Positions 51,037-59,895 of a DNA stretch of 64,000 bases are shown piece by piece; within the stretch, counting starts at the first letter, position 1; each line of letters begins with the position of its first letter. Origin of the DNA: an uncultured Kiritimatiellota bacterium (lineage in GTDB: Bacteria > Verrucomicrobiota > Kiritimatiellia > RFP12 > DVOR01). Both the position numbers and the translations under genes were made by a program. The stretch is from NCBI GenBank assembly GCA_944389945.1, contig CALXOF010000007.1, forward strand, positions 1 to 64,000. Reading direction: 5' to 3'. Below the pieces are notes generated by a model. The model had not been told where the DNA came from. It worked only from the letters and a program-made list of their open reading frames with translations, and made no database searches.

Positions 51037-53096
<2,060 letters not shown>

Positions 53097-53100
<4 letters not shown>

Positions 53101-53639
53101 TGTTTTGCCTTTCGAATGAAATCGTATACTTTGTTCGGGTCTTTGCGGCCGGGGGCGGCCTCGGTGCCGCCCGCAACGTCCACGCACCAGGGGCGGACGG
53201 CCACGACTGCGGCGGCGACGTTGTCGGGGGTCAGCCCGCCGGCGAGAACTAACCGCCGCCGACGCGCCAACCGCGCGGCCCGTCCCCAATCGCCGACGAC
53301 GCCCTGTCCGGGCGCGGTGTCGAAGACAATCGCCTCGGCGGCGGGGCCGGGCGTGGCGCGCCAGACCGGGATGCCCGCGGGCCGGAAGGGACAGCCATAG
53401 AGTTGGACGACATCGAATCTGCCGATGCGGACGGCGTGAGCGACCTCCGCCGGTGTGGCGTCCATGAAAACGCCGACGCGCAGGAGCCGCACGGGTACGC
53501 GGGCCAACTCGGCCAGACGGTCGAGCCCCACGTAGCGCTTGGAGTGCGGCCAGAGGACAAACCCGGCGAAGTCGGCCCCCGCCGCGTCCACAAGCGCGAG
53601 GTCTTCTGGGGTCGTCACGCCGCAAATCTTCACCTTCAT
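53097..53639 (-). CDS. trpF: phosphoribosylanthranilate isomerase
   Basis: 180 residues, slightly short for the family (about 200). It performs the Amadori rearrangement of PRA to Cd[15 protein letters not shown] carries the catalytic Cys, [24 protein letters not shown] and AGGLTPDNV follow, with the general-acid Asp in FDTA and [15 protein letters not shown] at the end. It overlaps trpC and trpBA by ATGA junctions on both sides, so the three are translationally coupled. Confidence 0.92.
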
Positions 53640-54397
53640 TTCAGGAGCCTCGGGAGCAGGTCGGGGTCGCGCATAAGGGCCTCACCGACCAAACAGCGAC
53701 GGGCTCCGACGGTCTCGAGGTCGGCCTTGGAGGTGATAGCGCTTTCGGCGACGGCGATGCGGTCGGCGGGGATACGCGCCAAGAGCCCATGAACGGCGGA
53801 GAGGTCGGTGCGGAAGGTGCGCAGGTCGCGGGCGTTCACGCCAATAACGCGTAACCCCAAGGCGACCAAGCGATCGACCTCCTCGGCATCATGCGCCTCA
53901 CCCAGCACGTCAAGCCCGAGGGCGTGGGCCTGCGCGGCCAGGTCGGCCAAGTGGGCGTTGGGTAACATGGCGGCGATGAGCAGAACGGCGTCCGCCCCTG
54001 CGGCGCGGGCCTCGAAGAGCTGGTAGGCGTCGAAGATGAAGTCCTTGCGCAGGAGCGGAAGCACAGTGACGGCGCGGGCGGCGCGGAGGTCGGCGAGGGA
54101 ACCTTGGAAGAAGCGCTCCTCCGTGAGGACAGAACAGGCGACGGCGCCGAGGGCCTCGTAGCGGCGGACGTTCCGGGCGGGATCGTAGTCCGGGGCGATG
54201 AGGCCCTTGGAGGGCGAGGCCTTCTTGGACTCGGCGATGACGCGGATGCCGGGGGCATCGAGCGCGTCGGCGAAACCACGGGTGGGCGGCAGATCGGCGC
54301 ACAAGCGCGCAAGCTCGGATTGGGGCAGGGCCGCCTTGGCGACGGTGAGAGATTCGCGCTTGGCGGCAACAATCTTTTCCAGGATGTCAGGCAACAT
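53636..54397 (-). CDS. trpC: indole-3-glycerol-phosphate synthase
   Basis: 253 residues. It closes the indole ring from Cd[33 protein letters not shown] (catalytic Lys), [44 protein letters not shown] and [12 protein letters not shown] are in family order. The start at 54397 gives an 11-nt overlap with trpD; the stop overlaps the trpF start. Confidence 0.94.
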
Positions 54398-55412
54398 GGC
54401 TGGCCTCCACAAGGGCGGTGAGTTTGGCGAGGGCCGCGCCGGAATCGATGGCGCGCTCGGCCATAGGCAGGGCCTCCTCGATGGACGACGCGAGGCCGGA
54501 GACGAAGATGGCGGCGGCGGCGTTGAGGGCGACGATGGCACGGGCACCATCCCGTTTGCGTCCCTCGAAGATGGCCCGCATGAGCGCGGCGTTTTCCTCG
54601 GGCGTGCCGCCGCGGATGTCGGCGGCGGGGAAGCGTTGGCCGAAGAGGATCTCGGGGAAGAGTTCGCGGGTGTGGAGCCCGCCCTCCGGGTCGAGCGCCG
54701 TGACGCGGCTGGGCGCGGTGACGGTGAGTTCGTCAAGCCCGTCGTGACCGTGGACGATGAGGGCGCGCTTGACGCCCAGGTCGTGAAGTGCCCCGGCCAA
54801 GAGTTCGGTGAGGGCCGCGTCGTAGACGCCGATAACGGTCGCGGCGGGACGGGTGGGATTCACCAACGGCCCGAGCAGGTTAAAGAGGGTACGCACGCCG
54901 AGCGCCTTGCGGACCGGTCCGACCTTCGCGAAGGCGGGGTGGAGCCGCGGCGCGAAGAGGAAGCCGAACCCAATCTCCGCGATGGCGCGCTCCATAGCCT
55001 CGGGCGGGCAATCCAGGTTGAACCCACTGGCCGCCAACACGTCCGCGGCGCCAGATTTGCCGCTGACGGCGCGGTTGCCGTGCTTGGCCATCGTCACGCC
55101 CGCGCCGGCGGCGACCAAAGAGGCCGCGGTGGAGACGTTGAAGCTCGCGCCGCCGTCGCCGCCCGTGCCCACCATGTCCGTCACGGGGCGCAGACCCACA
55201 TCGATGGGAACGGCATGACGAAGGAGGAAACGCGCGGCGCCGACGAGTTCGCTGCGGGCCTCGCCCTTCATGCGCAGGGCCACAAAGAGCGCCCCCAAAC
55301 GGATGGGTTCGGCCTCGCCGCGCACGACCTCGTCAAGGACGGCGCCCATCTGGCTCTCGGAGAGGTCGCGACGCGCAAGGGCGTCCGCCAAGGCACGGTC
55401 AAGTTCACGCAT
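54387..55412 (-). CDS. trpD: anthranilate phosphoribosyltransferase
   Basis: 341 residues. It joins anthranilate with PRPP. VGTGGDGGASFNVSTAAS is the PRPP loop, KHGNRAVSGKSGAADVL the anthranilate tunnel, FAPRLHPAFAKVGPVRKALGVRTLFNLLGPLVNP the hinge region and VHGHDGLDELT the C-terminal motif. It is a stand-alone domain, not fused to TrpG. It overlaps trpG by 8 nt and trpC by 11 nt. Confidence 0.94.
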   Translation of the reverse strand: MRELDRALADALARRDLSESQMGAVLDEVVRGEAEPIRLGALFVALRMKGEARSELVGAARFLLRHAVPIDVGLRPVTDMVGTGGDGGASFNVSTAASLVAAGAGVTMAKHGNRAVSGKSGAADVLAASGFNLDCPPEAMERAIAEIGFGFLFAPRLHPAFAKVGPVRKALGVRTLFNLLGPLVNPTRPAATVIGVYDAALTELLAGALHDLGVKRALIVHGHDGLDELTVTAPSRVTALDPEGGLHTRELFPEILFGQRFPAADIRGGTPEENAALMRAIFEGRKRDGARAIVALNAAAAIFVSGLASSIEEALPMAERAIDSGAALAKLTALVEASHVA

Positions 55413-55983
55413 GGCGGCACCCCGTGATGAAGTTGGAGAGCTGGCGTTTGCCGGCCTCGGTGAGGATGGACTCGGGGTGATATTGAATGCCTTCGATGGG
55501 GAGCGTTGTGTGGCGGATACCCATGATTTCGCCGTCCTCCGCTCGGGCGGTGACGGTGAGGCACGCGGGCAGGGAAACCGCGTCGAGGGCGAGGGAGTGG
55601 TAGCGTACGGCGCGGAAGGGATTGGGCACGCCGGCGAAGACGCCGCGGCCGTCATGCGTGACCTCGGAGACCTTGCCATGCATGACGCGTTGGGCATGGA
55701 CGACTCGCGCGCCGAAGACCTGGCCGATGGCTTGATGGCCCAGGCAGACGCCGAGCATCGGCACGCCGGCCTCGGCCCCCGCGCGCACCAGGTCGCAAAG
55801 GCACCCGGCATGGTCGGGCGAGGATGGCCCGGGCGAGAGCAGAATGCCGTCGGGCCGGAAGGCAAGCACCTCTTCGGGCGTGACCTCACGGTTGCGGCGG
55901 ACGGTGACCTCGGCGCCCAGCGCGTACAGCAGGTGCACGAGGTTGTAGGTGAAGGAGTCGTAGTTGTCGAGGACGAAGATCAT
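55405..55983 (-). CDS. trpG: anthranilate synthase glutamine amidotransferase subunit
   Basis: 192 residues, class I amidotransferase supplying ammonia to TrpE. NYDSFTYNLVH, LLSPGPSSPDHAG, the nucleophile Cys in GVCLGHQAIGQ, and the His-Glu pair in GIQYHPESILT are intact. It may also serve p-aminobenzoate synthesis (PabA), as in many bacteria with a single copy, but it lies in the trp operon. Confidence 0.94.
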   Translation of the reverse strand: MIFVLDNYDSFTYNLVHLLYALGAEVTVRRNREVTPEEVLAFRPDGILLSPGPSSPDHAGCLCDLVRAGAEAGVPMLGVCLGHQAIGQVFGARVVHAQRVMHGKVSEVTHDGRGVFAGVPNPFRAVRYHSLALDAVSLPACLTVTARAEDGEIMGIRHTTLPIEGIQYHPESILTEAGKRQLSNFITGCRHA

Positions 55984-55993
55984 GGCGGTCCTT

Positions 55994-57478
55994 TCAGCGG
56001 AGATCGAAGCCTTTGGCGGCCAGGCGGATGGCCTGGAAGACGGCGGAGGCCTTGTTGATGGTCTCCTCGTATTCCTTTTCGGGAACGGAGTCGTGGACGA
56101 TGCCGGCGCCGGCCTGGACGGTGAGGCGGCGCCCCTTGAGCTGGAGCGTGCGGATGGTGATGGCCAAATCCATGTCGCCGGTGTTGGAGAAGTAGCCCAC
56201 CGCGCCGCCGTAGACGCCGCGGGGCCCGTCCTCCAGTTCGTTGATCAGCTCCATCGCGCGGATTTTCGGCGCGCCGCTGAGGGTGCCGGCGGGGAAGGCC
56301 GTACGGAGCAGGTCGAAGGCATCGTAGCCCTCGGCAAGCAACGCATGGACGTCGCTCACCAGGTGCATCACGTGGGAGTAACGTTCGATGTGCATGAAGT
56401 CCTCCACGTGGACGCTGCCGGGCACGGCTGTGCGGCCCAAGTCGTTGCGGCCCAGGTCCACAAGCATGAGGTGTTCGGCGCGTTCCTTCGGGTCGGAGAG
56501 GAGTTCATCGGCGTTGGCGCGGTCCTGGGTCGGCGTGGCGCCGCGGCGGCGCGTACCGGCGATGGGGCGGACGGTGCTGCGGCCCTTTTCCAGACGCACC
56601 AGCGTCTCGGGCGAGGAACCGATGAGCACGAGGTCCCCATGGCGGAAGAAGAAGGTATAGGGCGAGGGGTTCACCGCGCGGAGGGCGCGATAGAGCTGAA
56701 GCGGCTCGGTGTCGCACTCGGCCTCGAAGCGTTGGGAGAGCACCACCTGGATGCACTCGCCGTCGCGGATGGCGCGCTTGGCGGCCTCTACGCGCTCACA
56801 GAAGACGTCGCGCTCCAGGTTGCTGTGCAGACGCGGCGGTTCGGCTTGGGGCGTCGTCTCGGGCAGGAGGGGACGAGGACGGAAGAATGGCGCCTTGAGC
56901 GTGGCCAGACGGCGCAACCCATCCTCATAAGCCGCGCGGGGCGACGCATACTGCGCGGGGGCGACCGTCGCCACGGCCAGGATGGTGTGGCGCAGGTTGT
57001 CGAAGACAAGGAGGTCGTCCACCAGCAGGAAGAGGGCCTCGGGCGTGTCGGCGCGGCCCTTGGGCGGCGGCAGGGACTCGAAGCGCCCCGCCATCTCGTA
57101 GCCCACATAACCCACCGCGCCGCCCAAGAGGGTCGGCAACCCCTCGGTCTCAATCGGGGCCCGTCCCAGCAAGGGACGCAGGGCCTCCATCGGATTGCCG
57201 TCGCAGGGGAGCGGTTGCCCGTCCAGGAAGGGCTTGCCGTCCTCCACCGTGAAGACCCCGCGCGGCGCGCACCCCAAGAAAGAGTAACGGCTGAAACGGC
57301 CGCCCTGCCCGCAGCTTTCCAACAGGAAGCAATCGGGGTGCGCCGCCGCCACCCGCACCAACGCGCTCACCGGCGTCTCCACGTCGGCCAGCGTCTCATC
57401 CGTCAGCGGGATGGGGCGCCCCTGCCCGCACAGCGCCTCGAAGCGCCCATAATCCATGATTTCTTGCATCGTGTCCAT
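55994..57478 (-). CDS. trpE: anthranilate synthase component I
   Basis: 494 residues. It converts chorismate to anthranilate with TrpG. The feedback site motif LLESCGQGGRFSRYSFLG near residue 51 (the LLES tryptophan-binding element) suggests inhibition by tryptophan. Catalytic signatures PIAGTRRRGATPTQD, DLGRNDLGRTAVPGSV, FPAGTLSGAPKIRAMELI and GAGIVHDSVPEKEYEET follow. The start could be ATG 57478 or 57469; earlier in-frame sequence lies within the attenuator. First structural gene of the trp operon. Confidence 0.94.
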   Translation of the reverse strand: MDTMQEIMDYGRFEALCGQGRPIPLTDETLADVETPVSALVRVAAAHPDCFLLESCGQGGRFSRYSFLGCAPRGVFTVEDGKPFLDGQPLPCDGNPMEALRPLLGRAPIETEGLPTLLGGAVGYVGYEMAGRFESLPPPKGRADTPEALFLLVDDLLVFDNLRHTILAVATVAPAQYASPRAAYEDGLRRLATLKAPFFRPRPLLPETTPQAEPPRLHSNLERDVFCERVEAAKRAIRDGECIQVVLSQRFEAECDTEPLQLYRALRAVNPSPYTFFFRHGDLVLIGSSPETLVRLEKGRSTVRPIAGTRRRGATPTQDRANADELLSDPKERAEHLMLVDLGRNDLGRTAVPGSVHVEDFMHIERYSHVMHLVSDVHALLAEGYDAFDLLRTAFPAGTLSGAPKIRAMELINELEDGPRGVYGGAVGYFSNTGDMDLAITIRTLQLKGRRLTVQAGAGIVHDSVPEKEYEETINKASAVFQAIRLAAKGFDLR

Positions 57479-57484
57479 CCAACG

Positions 57485-57525
57485 AAAAGCCGCGCCCCAG
57501 GAAGTTTGCCTTCCGGAGACGCGGC
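57485..57525 (-). terminator. second terminator-like hairpin in the trp leader
   Basis: On the minus strand GCCGCG pairs with CGCGGC (57520-57525 and 57489-57494) around an inner CCGGAAG/CTTCC-type stem, followed by TTTT (57485-57488), 7 nt before the trpE ATG. It could be an additional attenuator stem or could sequester the trpE ribosome-binding site. Confidence 0.5.
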
Positions 57526-57532
57526 GTATGCC

Positions 57533-57573
57533 CAAACAAAATCGGCGACCCAAGCCCAAGGCCCAAATCGCCG
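57533..57573 (-). promoter_or_regulatory. trp attenuator: mutually exclusive hairpins and terminator
   Basis: Region 3 CGGCGA (57568-57573) pairs with region 4 TCGCCG (57543-57548), with inner wobble pairs, and is followed by ATTTTGTTT: the terminator form. Region 3 can instead pair with region 2 TCGCCG (57618-57623), and region 2 with region 1 GGCGAG (57629-57634), which overlaps the second Trp codon of the leader peptide. This is the classic 1:2/2:3/3:4 logic. Confidence 0.65.
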
Positions 57574-57599
57574 AAACCTTTTCAGTCCTGTCTGCTTGC

Positions 57600-57674
57600 T
57601 TATGCGGCAAGGCGTTCCGGCGAGTCCCCTCGCCAGAGCCATCGAGCAACGTTGAAGCAAACGGTGTGTTTCAT
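57600..57674 (-). CDS. trpL: trp operon leader peptide
   Basis: 24-codon frame (MKHTVCFNVA RWLWRG... ending LAA, then TAA) with two closely spaced Trp codons (residues 12 and 14). Stalling there would cover hairpin region 1 and free region 2 to block the terminator. The predicted transcription start is at the ATG or within a base or two, so the leader may be read as a leaderless message; no Shine-Dalgarno is visible. A longer Trp-rich frame overlapping trpE was considered and rejected. Confidence 0.68.
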   Translation of the reverse strand: MKHTVCFNVARWLWRGDSPERLAA

Positions 57675-57682
57675 TGCCGCAT

Positions 57683-57711
57683 AAGATACATCATCCCCAC
57701 CCCACCGTCAA
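57683..57711 (-). promoter_or_regulatory. promoter of the trp operon
   Basis: Minus-strand TTGACG (57706-57711), 17-bp spacer, TATCTT (57683-57688). Predicted start near 57676, giving a leader of about 200 nt before trpE. Confidence 0.75.
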
Positions 57712-57782
57712 GAAAAATCTTGCATTTGTCGTGTAAGAAAGATGTAAAGCCACAAATACCCTTCCTCATAATAAGTAGGAAA

Positions 57783-57791
57783 TGCTATACT
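57783..57791 (+). promoter_or_regulatory. extended -10 promoter TGCTATACT
   Basis: TATACT (57786-57791) with TG extension ends only 6 bp before the glycosyltransferase ATG, so transcription would start at or next to the start codon. Confidence 0.55.
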
Positions 57792-57797
57792 ACAACC

Positions 57798-58811
57798 ATG
57801 CAAACACCTACCCCCCCCCATGTTGAAGACTTACACCTGGTCTACGCGACGGATAAGGGTTATCTCTTTATCTCCGCCGTCTCAGCGGTTAGCGCGGCCC
57901 GCTTAGCCAGCACTCCCGAGCGCCTCGTCATCCACCTGCTCGATTGCGGCCTAGACGATGCCGACTGGGAACGCTTCTGCACCCTCGTGCGCAAAGGCGA
58001 CTCCCGCGTCACCCTCCGGCGTCACGTGATTGACATGGCCCGCTTCGCGGGATTCAAATCATGGCATGGGAGTCTCGGCACCTACGCGCGCCTCTTCTTG
58101 CCGGAACTCCTTCCAGAGGCTCCGTGGTGTCTTTATGTAGATGGAGACACGCTTTTTACGGAGGATCCTTTTAAGGCATTGACCTTTTGCGCGGATAATC
58201 TCGCCATCGTGGGACCAGAAGACAGATGTTCTCCCCAGAGCCGTGCCTGGTTCACCGAGAAAGGATTCCAGAAGGATCTCACCCATTACTTCTGTGCCGG
58301 CTTCATTCTAATCAACCTCGACTGGTTCCGAGCACATGATGGTATCCACTGGTGTATGGACTTCCTGACAGCACACCCTGACACGCCTTTCCCCGATCAA
58401 GACGCGCTCAACCTCTTCTGCGAGGGGCACATTGGCCTTTTCTCCAAACCCTGGGGCGTGCTCAGCGAACGTCTCAACGAGGCCGATTTCCCCGCACTGA
58501 TTCATTATGTCGTAGATCTGCCCACGCGGATGCGTTTTCGTACACGCGATGGCTTCCGTGACGTAACGGCGGTGTGGGTGAAGTTTGTTCAAGTTGCGCT
58601 TGGGATGAACGTGACGGAATCCTGCCATATCCCGCGCTGGCAATGGCTCTTTGGACGCGCCTACAACCATCTCCTGCGCCTCATCATCGCCGTACTCGCG
58701 CACACGCCCTTCGGCAAACGCTGGCCCCGCATGGCTGAGTTTCAGGGGCTTTTCATACCTGGCACAGTCCGGCGCAGGCTTCTGTCGAAGAAGTTTTGGA
58801 AGAGGAGCTGA
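57798..58811 (+). CDS. family 8 glycosyltransferase
   Basis: 337 residues. GT8 retaining transferase of the LPS galactosyl/glucosyl type: LHLVYATDKGYLFISAVSAVSA N-terminus, the metal-binding DxD in CLYVDGDTLF, FCAGFILINLDWFR, DQDALNLFCEG and IHYV. The basic, helical C-terminus may bind membrane. Probable role: adding a hexose to LPS core or another surface glycan. No ribosome-binding site is visible and the promoter ends 6 bp before the ATG, so a leaderless mRNA is likely. A terminator follows. Confidence 0.88.
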   Translation: MQTPTPPHVEDLHLVYATDKGYLFISAVSAVSAARLASTPERLVIHLLDCGLDDADWERFCTLVRKGDSRVTLRRHVIDMARFAGFKSWHGSLGTYARLFLPELLPEAPWCLYVDGDTLFTEDPFKALTFCADNLAIVGPEDRCSPQSRAWFTEKGFQKDLTHYFCAGFILINLDWFRAHDGIHWCMDFLTAHPDTPFPDQDALNLFCEGHIGLFSKPWGVLSERLNEADFPALIHYVVDLPTRMRFRTRDGFRDVTAVWVKFVQVALGMNVTESCHIPRWQWLFGRAYNHLLRLIIAVLAHTPFGKRWPRMAEFQGLFIPGTVRRRLLSKKFWKRS

Positions 58812-59064: not shown

Positions 59065-59895
59065 CCTCGAGTAGCCAGGGCTCCTCCCCTGCGCCCCCTA
59101 GGGGGGCGCAGGGGGGAGGCCCACAGCCCCTCTCAGAGTGCGCGAAAACATCATACACTTTCCAATCCAACGCAGATCATTCTGACAAACGGGAAAATCG
59201 CCGATATTTCAATCGCGAAAACGCGTCTCACGCCACGCCCGGACAGCATCTTGGTTGCAGATCGGAGGTACGAGGACAAACACCTCTTCCGGATGAACGC
59301 CCTGCAGGGCATGCGCTTCGTCATCCGCGCCAAAAACAACACGTATTACTATCCTGTCGGCGACGTCCCCCGTGCGCTCAGCCAAGGCGCGATCTCGGAT
59401 GAATACGTCGTCACGCGCATTGAGGACCTTTCTAGGCGCGGCGTCCCGCGCCTACGCAAAATCGTCCTACCGCCGTTCGATGGGCACGAACGGCCCATCA
59501 CCATCATCACCAATCTGCTCGACCGGACAGCAGCCGAAATCGGAGAAATGTACCGCAAACGCTGGCGGATCGAAATCTTCTTCCGCTTCCTGAAAACCCG
59601 TCTCCACATCACCAAACTCTACGGCACCAGCGAGAACGCCATCCGCATCCAGATTGCCGTCTGCGGGCTTGTCGCCCTCGCCCTCGCCTACCTCTCCATG
59701 CTTGCGGAACAAGCCCTGGCCTCCATCGGCGGGCCGACCGTCTGCCTGAGGCGTCTCCGCTACTGCCTGCTTTCCGCCTACAACCTTGCGGAACTCCTTC
59801 TTCGGCCCCTTCACACCAAAAAACGTGCCTTATCCTCCTCCATTCCGCCACTCATCCCCCCCTTCCGACTTACCCTTCCACTCGTCTTCGCATAA
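59065..59895 (+). pseudogene. IS4-family transposase, N-terminally truncated
   Basis: Open from 59065 and recognisable from about 59143 (HTLSNPTQIILTNGKIADIS) to 59895. A DDE Asp in ILVADRRYED and the IS4 YREK signature Y-x2-R-x3-E-x6-K in MYRKRWRIEIFFRFLKTR are intact. The N-terminal third with the first Asp is missing, and a stop at 59062-59064 lies upstream, so it is not functional. The right inverted end TTCCCCGGACACTA follows at 59897-59910. A GC palindrome (59081-59118) sits where the N-terminal half should be. Confidence 0.85.
59081..59118. repeat. strong GC palindrome
   Basis: CCCCTGCGCCCCC (left arm) and GGGGGGCGCAGGGG (right arm) around TA. It forms a 13-14-bp stem inside the decayed 5' part of the transposase remnant. 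It could be a terminator or a secondary insertion scar. Confidence 0.75.

Follow-up and report, generated by a model that had tools for sequence, protein, structure and literature searches.

How an uncultured gut bacterium of the Kiritimatiellota adjusts transcription of its trp operon is the question raised by a strongly structured leader that occupies the 200 nt directly ahead of trpE. The leader lies in the window, by which we mean the whole stretch of 64,000 nucleotides analyzed here, and spans positions 57711 to 57481 of the minus strand, ahead of trpEGDCF-trpBA. We put the probability at roughly 0.92 that this region is a ribosome-mediated attenuator of the operon that responds to charged tRNA-Trp. 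The attenuator is in all likelihood real and functional, and its predicted mechanism is classical. Its most distinctive part is a second terminator, the conservation of which is a puzzle for the textbook model with one terminator and one antiterminator.

The host is represented by a 2.3-Mb draft genome that resembles "Candidatus Spyradenecus" (Lentisphaerota/Kiritimatiellae). The trpE gene of the window is 92 to 99% identical to those of genomes named "uncultured Kiritimatiellaeota bacterium" and "Candidatus Spyradenecus faecavium," and NCBI places Candidatus Spyradenecus in the Lentisphaerota, within the PVC group. The operon is laid out as follows.

55994..57478, minus strand: trpE, with its start codon at 57478 or at 57469, the latter being better conserved in relatives
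51037..55983, minus strand: remainder of the operon, made up of the next five entries
55983-55405, minus strand: trpG
55418-54387, minus strand: trpD
54433-53636, minus strand: trpC
53639-53097, minus strand: trpF
51037-53103, minus strand: trpB-trpA in a single frame, beta before alpha, about 687 amino acids with a linker

The frame that contains trpA is 690 to 940 codons long in most genus members and 263 and 340 codons long in G012 and G013, and not one of the ten genus members that encode trpE has a TGG codon in that gene. Beside the attenuator, on the plus strand, is a divergent ORF for a family 8 glycosyltransferase (57456-58811). Its listed ATG at 57456 would make the ORF antisense to the leader, and the gene thus probably starts near 57800. 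Another plus-strand ORF, at 59251-59895, encodes a DDE transposase domain (PF01609).

The leader itself contains the following elements.

57683..57711, minus strand: promoter, with -35 TTGACG (57711-57706), a 17-nt spacer and -10 TATCTT (57688-57683)
57600..57674, minus strand: trpL-like leader ORF of 24 codons plus stop, MKHTVCFNVARWLWRGDSPERLAA, with a predicted start 0 to 4 nt from the RNA 5' end
57642..57644, minus strand: Arg11 codon CGA, directly ahead of Trp12 and invariant though CGA is rare
57633..57641, minus strand: regulatory codons TGG-CTC-TGG (Trp12, Leu13, Trp14)
57629..57637, minus strand: segment 1, UCUGGCGAG, which overlaps Trp14 and forms the 1:2 helix (100% of cells paired)
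57614..57624, minus strand: segment 2, CUCGCCGGAAC, within the leader ORF, partner of segment 1 or 3
57568..57577, minus strand: segment 3, GUUUCGGCGA, partner of segment 2 (antiterminator) or 4 (terminator)
57542..57549, minus strand: segment 4, the GGUCGCCGA region, 3' arm of terminator 1
57534..57574, minus strand: terminator 1 (T1, 3:4), intrinsic, a hairpin (57574-57542) plus the U-tract UUUUGUUU
57481..57525, minus strand: terminator 2 (T2), a hairpin (57525-57489) whose 5' arm carries UCCGG, followed by UUUUCGUU

A first-pass annotation of the sequence had called a near-consensus promoter, a 24-residue peptide with Trp at residues 12 and 14, and the alternating pairs GGCGAG/CTCGCC, TCGCCG/CGGCGA and CGGCGA/TCGCCG followed by ATTTTGTTT, and all of these are present on the minus strand where they were claimed. 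It had also noted a second hairpin with TTTT before trpE, which proved to be a tandem terminator conserved in a clade that spans two classes.

Translation of the leader is predicted to begin almost at the 5' end of the RNA. The leader ATG at 57674 is eight bases past the -10 hexamer, and in all ten genus members that encode trpE the -10 hexamer of the best promoter lies 7 to 10 nt ahead of the ATG, such that the predicted 5' UTR is 0 to 4 nt, without space for a Shine-Dalgarno sequence. The RNA 5' end is predicted at the leader ATG, or no more than about 4 nt away from it, in each of the ten species. A start downstream of 57674 finds little footing, as the sole other promoter-like site in 57300-57900 begins at 57477, at the start of trpE. 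A near-leaderless layout is also predicted for 11 of 19 leaders from other families, two of which (L062 and L084) were counted by reading an in-frame upstream ATG. The arrangement had been rightly called unusual, but it has precedents in Sinorhizobium meliloti trpL (PMC7298713) and in Streptomyces lividans trpL1 (PMC8079986).

The RNA elements are conserved among relatives. In each of the ten relatives that have trpE, a leader ORF with at least two Trp codons precedes a trp gene, and both the stems and the Trp codons are kept, a form of conservation that had been proposed as a check. A second such check was RNA folding, which gave -95.9 kcal/mol for the leader, compared to -71.6 ± 4.3 in dinucleotide shuffles (z of -5.7; 0/200 as stable). 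When every pair of columns in the 10-genome alignment was scanned without bias, the four longest conserved helices were 2:3 (columns 65-74/111-120), T2 (168-177/205-214), 1:2 (51-59/64-72) and 3:4, that is, T1 (115-123/141-149). For the set of 1:2, T1 and T2, 94.7% of cells pair and seven pairs have changed on both sides, with compensatory changes in both terminators; the covariation was matched by 0/500 shuffles and exceeds all slid controls, with the ten aligned genomes being kin, such that counts among them are not independent. The 2:3 helix alone shows little covariation. Its core never varies, and hence the antiterminator is backed by conservation and slid controls. When nascent RNA from segment 2 through segment 3 was folded ahead of the appearance of segment 4, the antiterminator formed in 10/10.

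The positions of the codons relative to the segments suit a stalled ribosome. Counted along the leader of the window, the first bases of the two Trp codons are nt 34 and 40, segment 1 covers nt 38-46, segment 2 begins at nt 51, and the stop codon is at nt 73. Across the ten leaders, the Trp codons start at nt 34 and 40 or, in three of them, at nt 37 and 43; the core of segment 1 starts at nt 41 (44) and segment 2 at nt 51 (54), and the stop falls at nt 67-76. A ribosome's 3' edge is some 15 nt away from the codon in its P site, the toeprint distance. At that distance, a ribosome waiting at Trp12 would cover the RNA to about nt 46, and one at Trp14 to about nt 52. Thus, a ribosome stalled at a Trp codon would mask segment 1 and leave most of segment 2 free, whereas one on the stop codon would mask part of segment 2. 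In other families of the order, the Trp run is at codons 8-15 and segment 2 is usually within the ORF.

The sequence supports the parts, their conservation and covariation, and the possible order of the helices, from which the following course may be inferred. Transcription would start at the leader AUG or no more than about 4 nt away from it, and a ribosome would load onto the almost bare 5' end. When tryptophan is present, the ribosome would clear codons 12 and 14 and reach the stop behind segment 2, where it would either cover segment 2 or depart and allow 1:2 to re-form. Either way 3:4 would pair, and RNA polymerase would halt at T1. When tryptophan is absent, the ribosome would stall at Trp12 or Trp14 and mask segment 1, 2:3 would pair before segment 4 exists, T1 would not form, and polymerase would continue. 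The codon ahead of Trp12 is a rare one. CGA encodes Arg11 in 10/10 leaders and Arg15 in 9/10, yet of the 447 Arg codons that the ten trpE genes contain, it accounts for only 5. As Arg15 lies within segment 1 and Arg11 outside it, the CGA of Arg11 may have been retained as a slow codon next to Trp12.

The leader is found with the pathway and not without it. Ten of the 17 genomes of the genus encode trpE, and the leader is upstream in all ten. A pattern that joins the Trp codons to segments 1 and 2 matched each of these genomes perfectly at a single site. It matched nowhere in the other seven (G001, G002, G003, G009, G010, G014 and G016), which lack both trpE and trpA. Thus, the leader appears to have been gained or lost together with the pathway. 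Some of the seven genomes are about 90% complete, and the seven species are thus probably tryptophan auxotrophs.

The phylogeny of trpE crosses class boundaries. The closest trpE genes outside the genus belong to families f19 and f25 of another class, at 55 to 63% identity versus about 50% within the order of the genus. The trpE genes of the genus are nested in a 35-row clade (support 90/87), nearly all leaders of which are near-leaderless with both T1 and T2. T2 occurs in 32 leaders of that clade, 10/10 from the genus and 22 from the other class. Tandem terminators in f19 and f25 were found at L146-L149, L152, L158, L162, L164, L169-L191, L193 and L198; the ORFs that a fixed-spacing order check gave at L150, L160 and L161 were false and were left out of the counts. 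Where f19 and f25 carry a trpE outside the clade, the 5' UTR is longer and the terminator single. Among 14 leaders outside the clade, the -10 hexamer is 15-45 nt from the start codon or there is no near promoter, and all have T1 only. W-run leaders also precede trpE elsewhere in the order and phylum, each lineage having its own, and all 19 leaders from the genus's own order have one terminator. T2 is thus tied to the trpE clade, which makes it a heritable part of the trp operon, and the operon and its attenuator were probably transferred together between classes.

What T2 does is less easily read from the leader. The T2 stem has a predicted stability of -17 to -39 kcal/mol, with a U-tract in nearly all ten genus members, its predicted strength mostly equals or exceeds that of T1, and the gap between T1 and T2 is usually 15-17 nt. 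Recurrence in 22 leaders of another class rules out that T2 is there by chance. An RNA partner able to disarm T2 was sought by the alignment helix scan, by folds with the antiterminator forced and by a shuffled-duplex test, and none was found. T2 remained folded with the antiterminator forced in 10/10, and its 5' arm paired more weakly than shuffled sequence did with segment 4 and the linker, the RNA left free under starvation (mean z of +0.78 ± 0.13). Thus, we take T2 to be insulated from the leader RNA, and a simple model with one switch predicts that it would still stop some polymerases. Two further readings were rejected. Segment 3 (UUUCGG) could pair with CCGGAA of T2 over 6 bp in 90% of rows, but segment 3 has a partner in either state, and leaders of the other class do not retain this pairing. 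Between T1 and T2, a frame that starts at the TTG within the U-tract of T1 is often open, but alignment gaps shift it, and the frame upstream of trpE is open in some species only; thus, it is not a second leader ORF. We also note that one leader of the other class (L170, in G186) has a possible third hairpin and U-tract past T2, at nt 183-211 from its ATG.

The most likely role for T2 is that of a constitutive, incomplete backup, which would fold about 16 nt after T1 in both states, pass some polymerases, reduce leakage and place a ceiling on expression. Alternatively, the leader peptide might couple T1 to charged tRNA-Trp, and T2 might be disarmed separately and in trans, perhaps by a protein or small RNA that recognizes CCGG or by an antitermination factor. 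Retention of T2 in 32 leaders of two classes, the presence of CCGG in the 5' half of the hairpin in 28 of these, and the insulation and strength of T2 all speak for a second signal, and we consider it possible though doubtful. Outside the T2 hairpin, however, no conserved unpaired binding element was seen, and a leaky backup terminator fits the data with fewer parts. That such a two-input attenuator, with a trans-acting factor on the CCGG-bearing T2, was also inherited with the trp operon across two PVC classes strikes us as unlikely.

The peptide raises another alternative. In all ten leaders of the genus, the N-terminal part varies, and the peptide ends in RW[LF]WR[GE].SP[ED] and a few residues, a conservation that extends beyond the Trp codons and might reflect arrest by the nascent chain, as with TnaC. 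The bases behind SPE, however, are those of segment 2, their third positions are kept as well, and peptides of the related class often stop just past the Trp run (RWLWR*, NRWQWRW*). RNA pairing accounts for conservation of the peptide end, and arrest of the TnaC type is improbable.

Even less probable is Rho-independent attenuation that dispenses with the ribosome and answers to a small molecule or a protein, as in a riboswitch, TRAP or T-box system. A strongly structured leader with a terminator would fit such control, but the short ORF is conserved with two Trp codons at fixed positions, and the RNA sequence differs in relatives while W-runs remain at codons 8-15. Moreover, an Rfam search of 2 kb of the region returned no match to any family, T-box and riboswitch included. 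Nor was Trp_leader (RF00513) matched at E values up to 10, and the window leader is thus not assigned to that sequence family. The missing match counts against the main reading, though leaders of this type are poorly conserved in sequence. Finally, hairpins are frequent in GC-rich DNA, but a chance combination of hairpins and an ORF has a negligible probability and is already contradicted by the folding z score, the 10/10 conservation, the covariation and the co-loss with trp genes.

Ribosome-mediated attenuation may be the sole control of trp transcription in the genus. TrpR (PF01371) was found in none of the 17 genus genomes and in 26 of 42 other genomes of the same order. Of 30 trpE regions inspected from other families in this order, 15 have a promoter with the palindrome GTTTCTRTATAYAGAAAC or one close to it (TCTATTRATAGA) (L015-L021, L023-L027, L029, L129 and L130). 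It occurs once or twice per genome, with a second site directly before trpB in two genomes (L139 and L140). All 15 genomes with the palindrome encode TrpR, compared to 5/15 without it (Fisher p of 2e-4), and the palindrome is very likely the TrpR operator of the order. It was absent from the three genus genomes searched. Relatives would thus appear to carry the operator alone, the attenuator alone, or both, and the genus, as far as can be read from the genomes, attenuation alone.

In 2010, a survey noted that leader-peptide systems had been known only in Proteobacteria and Actinobacteria, and added Firmicutes (PMC2965389). The first-pass annotation knew of no description in the present lineage, and the open-access literature that we searched likewise held no trp attenuators from Lentisphaerota, Kiritimatiellae or Verrucomicrobia, and no trp leader with tandem terminators. 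Thus, as far as that literature shows, the lineage is new, as are a predicted near-leaderless start in 10/10 species, with precedents in Sinorhizobium and Streptomyces, the tandem T2, a segment 2 in frame and an invariant rare CGA before the first Trp codon. Leader-peptide attenuation appears to be widespread in the Lentisphaerota/Kiritimatiellae, where it extends over the majority of lineages in one order and reaches two further families. The attenuators vary naturally in start type, terminator number and presence of TrpR, and comparison can therefore test when lineages use attenuation alone, TrpR alone, or both.

Among known systems, the enterobacterial trp attenuator typified by E. coli trpL shares the short ORF with two Trp codons, the 1:2/2:3/3:4 alternation and the terminator before trpE. 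In E. coli, the leader stop codon precedes segment 2. The E. coli logic originally proposed for the window therefore holds for the Trp codons and the pairings, but not for segment 2, which is coding, or for the stop, which is behind it. The leader also differs from trpL in being near-leaderless, in having Trp-Leu-Trp instead of Trp-Trp, in its second terminator and in the lack of a TrpR found in the genus. S. meliloti trpLE(G) is similar in that the ORF is leaderless, with the RNA 5' end at the ATG, and in that attenuation operates without transcriptional repression; its peptide, however, has 14 residues and consecutive Trp codons, the accessible part of the report describes no second terminator, and trpE(G) stands alone, unlike the full trp operon behind the window leader (PMC7298713). 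In Streptomyces, a leaderless peptide precedes trpE (trpL1) or trpS (trpL2), and trpL1 has hairpins and a U-tract (PMC8079986; candidates in PMC1262725), but the peptides are WWW or single-W, and the "two hairpin structures" form one termination site between trpL1 and trpE. Trp-codon-dependent control also operates on trpRBA of Chlamydia trachomatis, in the related superphylum, where a putative TrpL of 59 residues is unvalidated and control is reportedly exerted not by TrpL attenuation but by TrpR, and by YtgR in trans via a WWW motif (PMC7755916). Further counterparts are the leaders of f19 and f25, in the same phylum but another class, which are likewise undescribed in the open literature searched. 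Their peptides are shorter (RWLWR*, NRWQWRW*, WWRWW*), and the stop falls ahead of the loop to segment 2 or within it, but they share the near-leaderless ORF, the tandem of T1 and T2, the CCGG motif of T2, and the same trpE clade.
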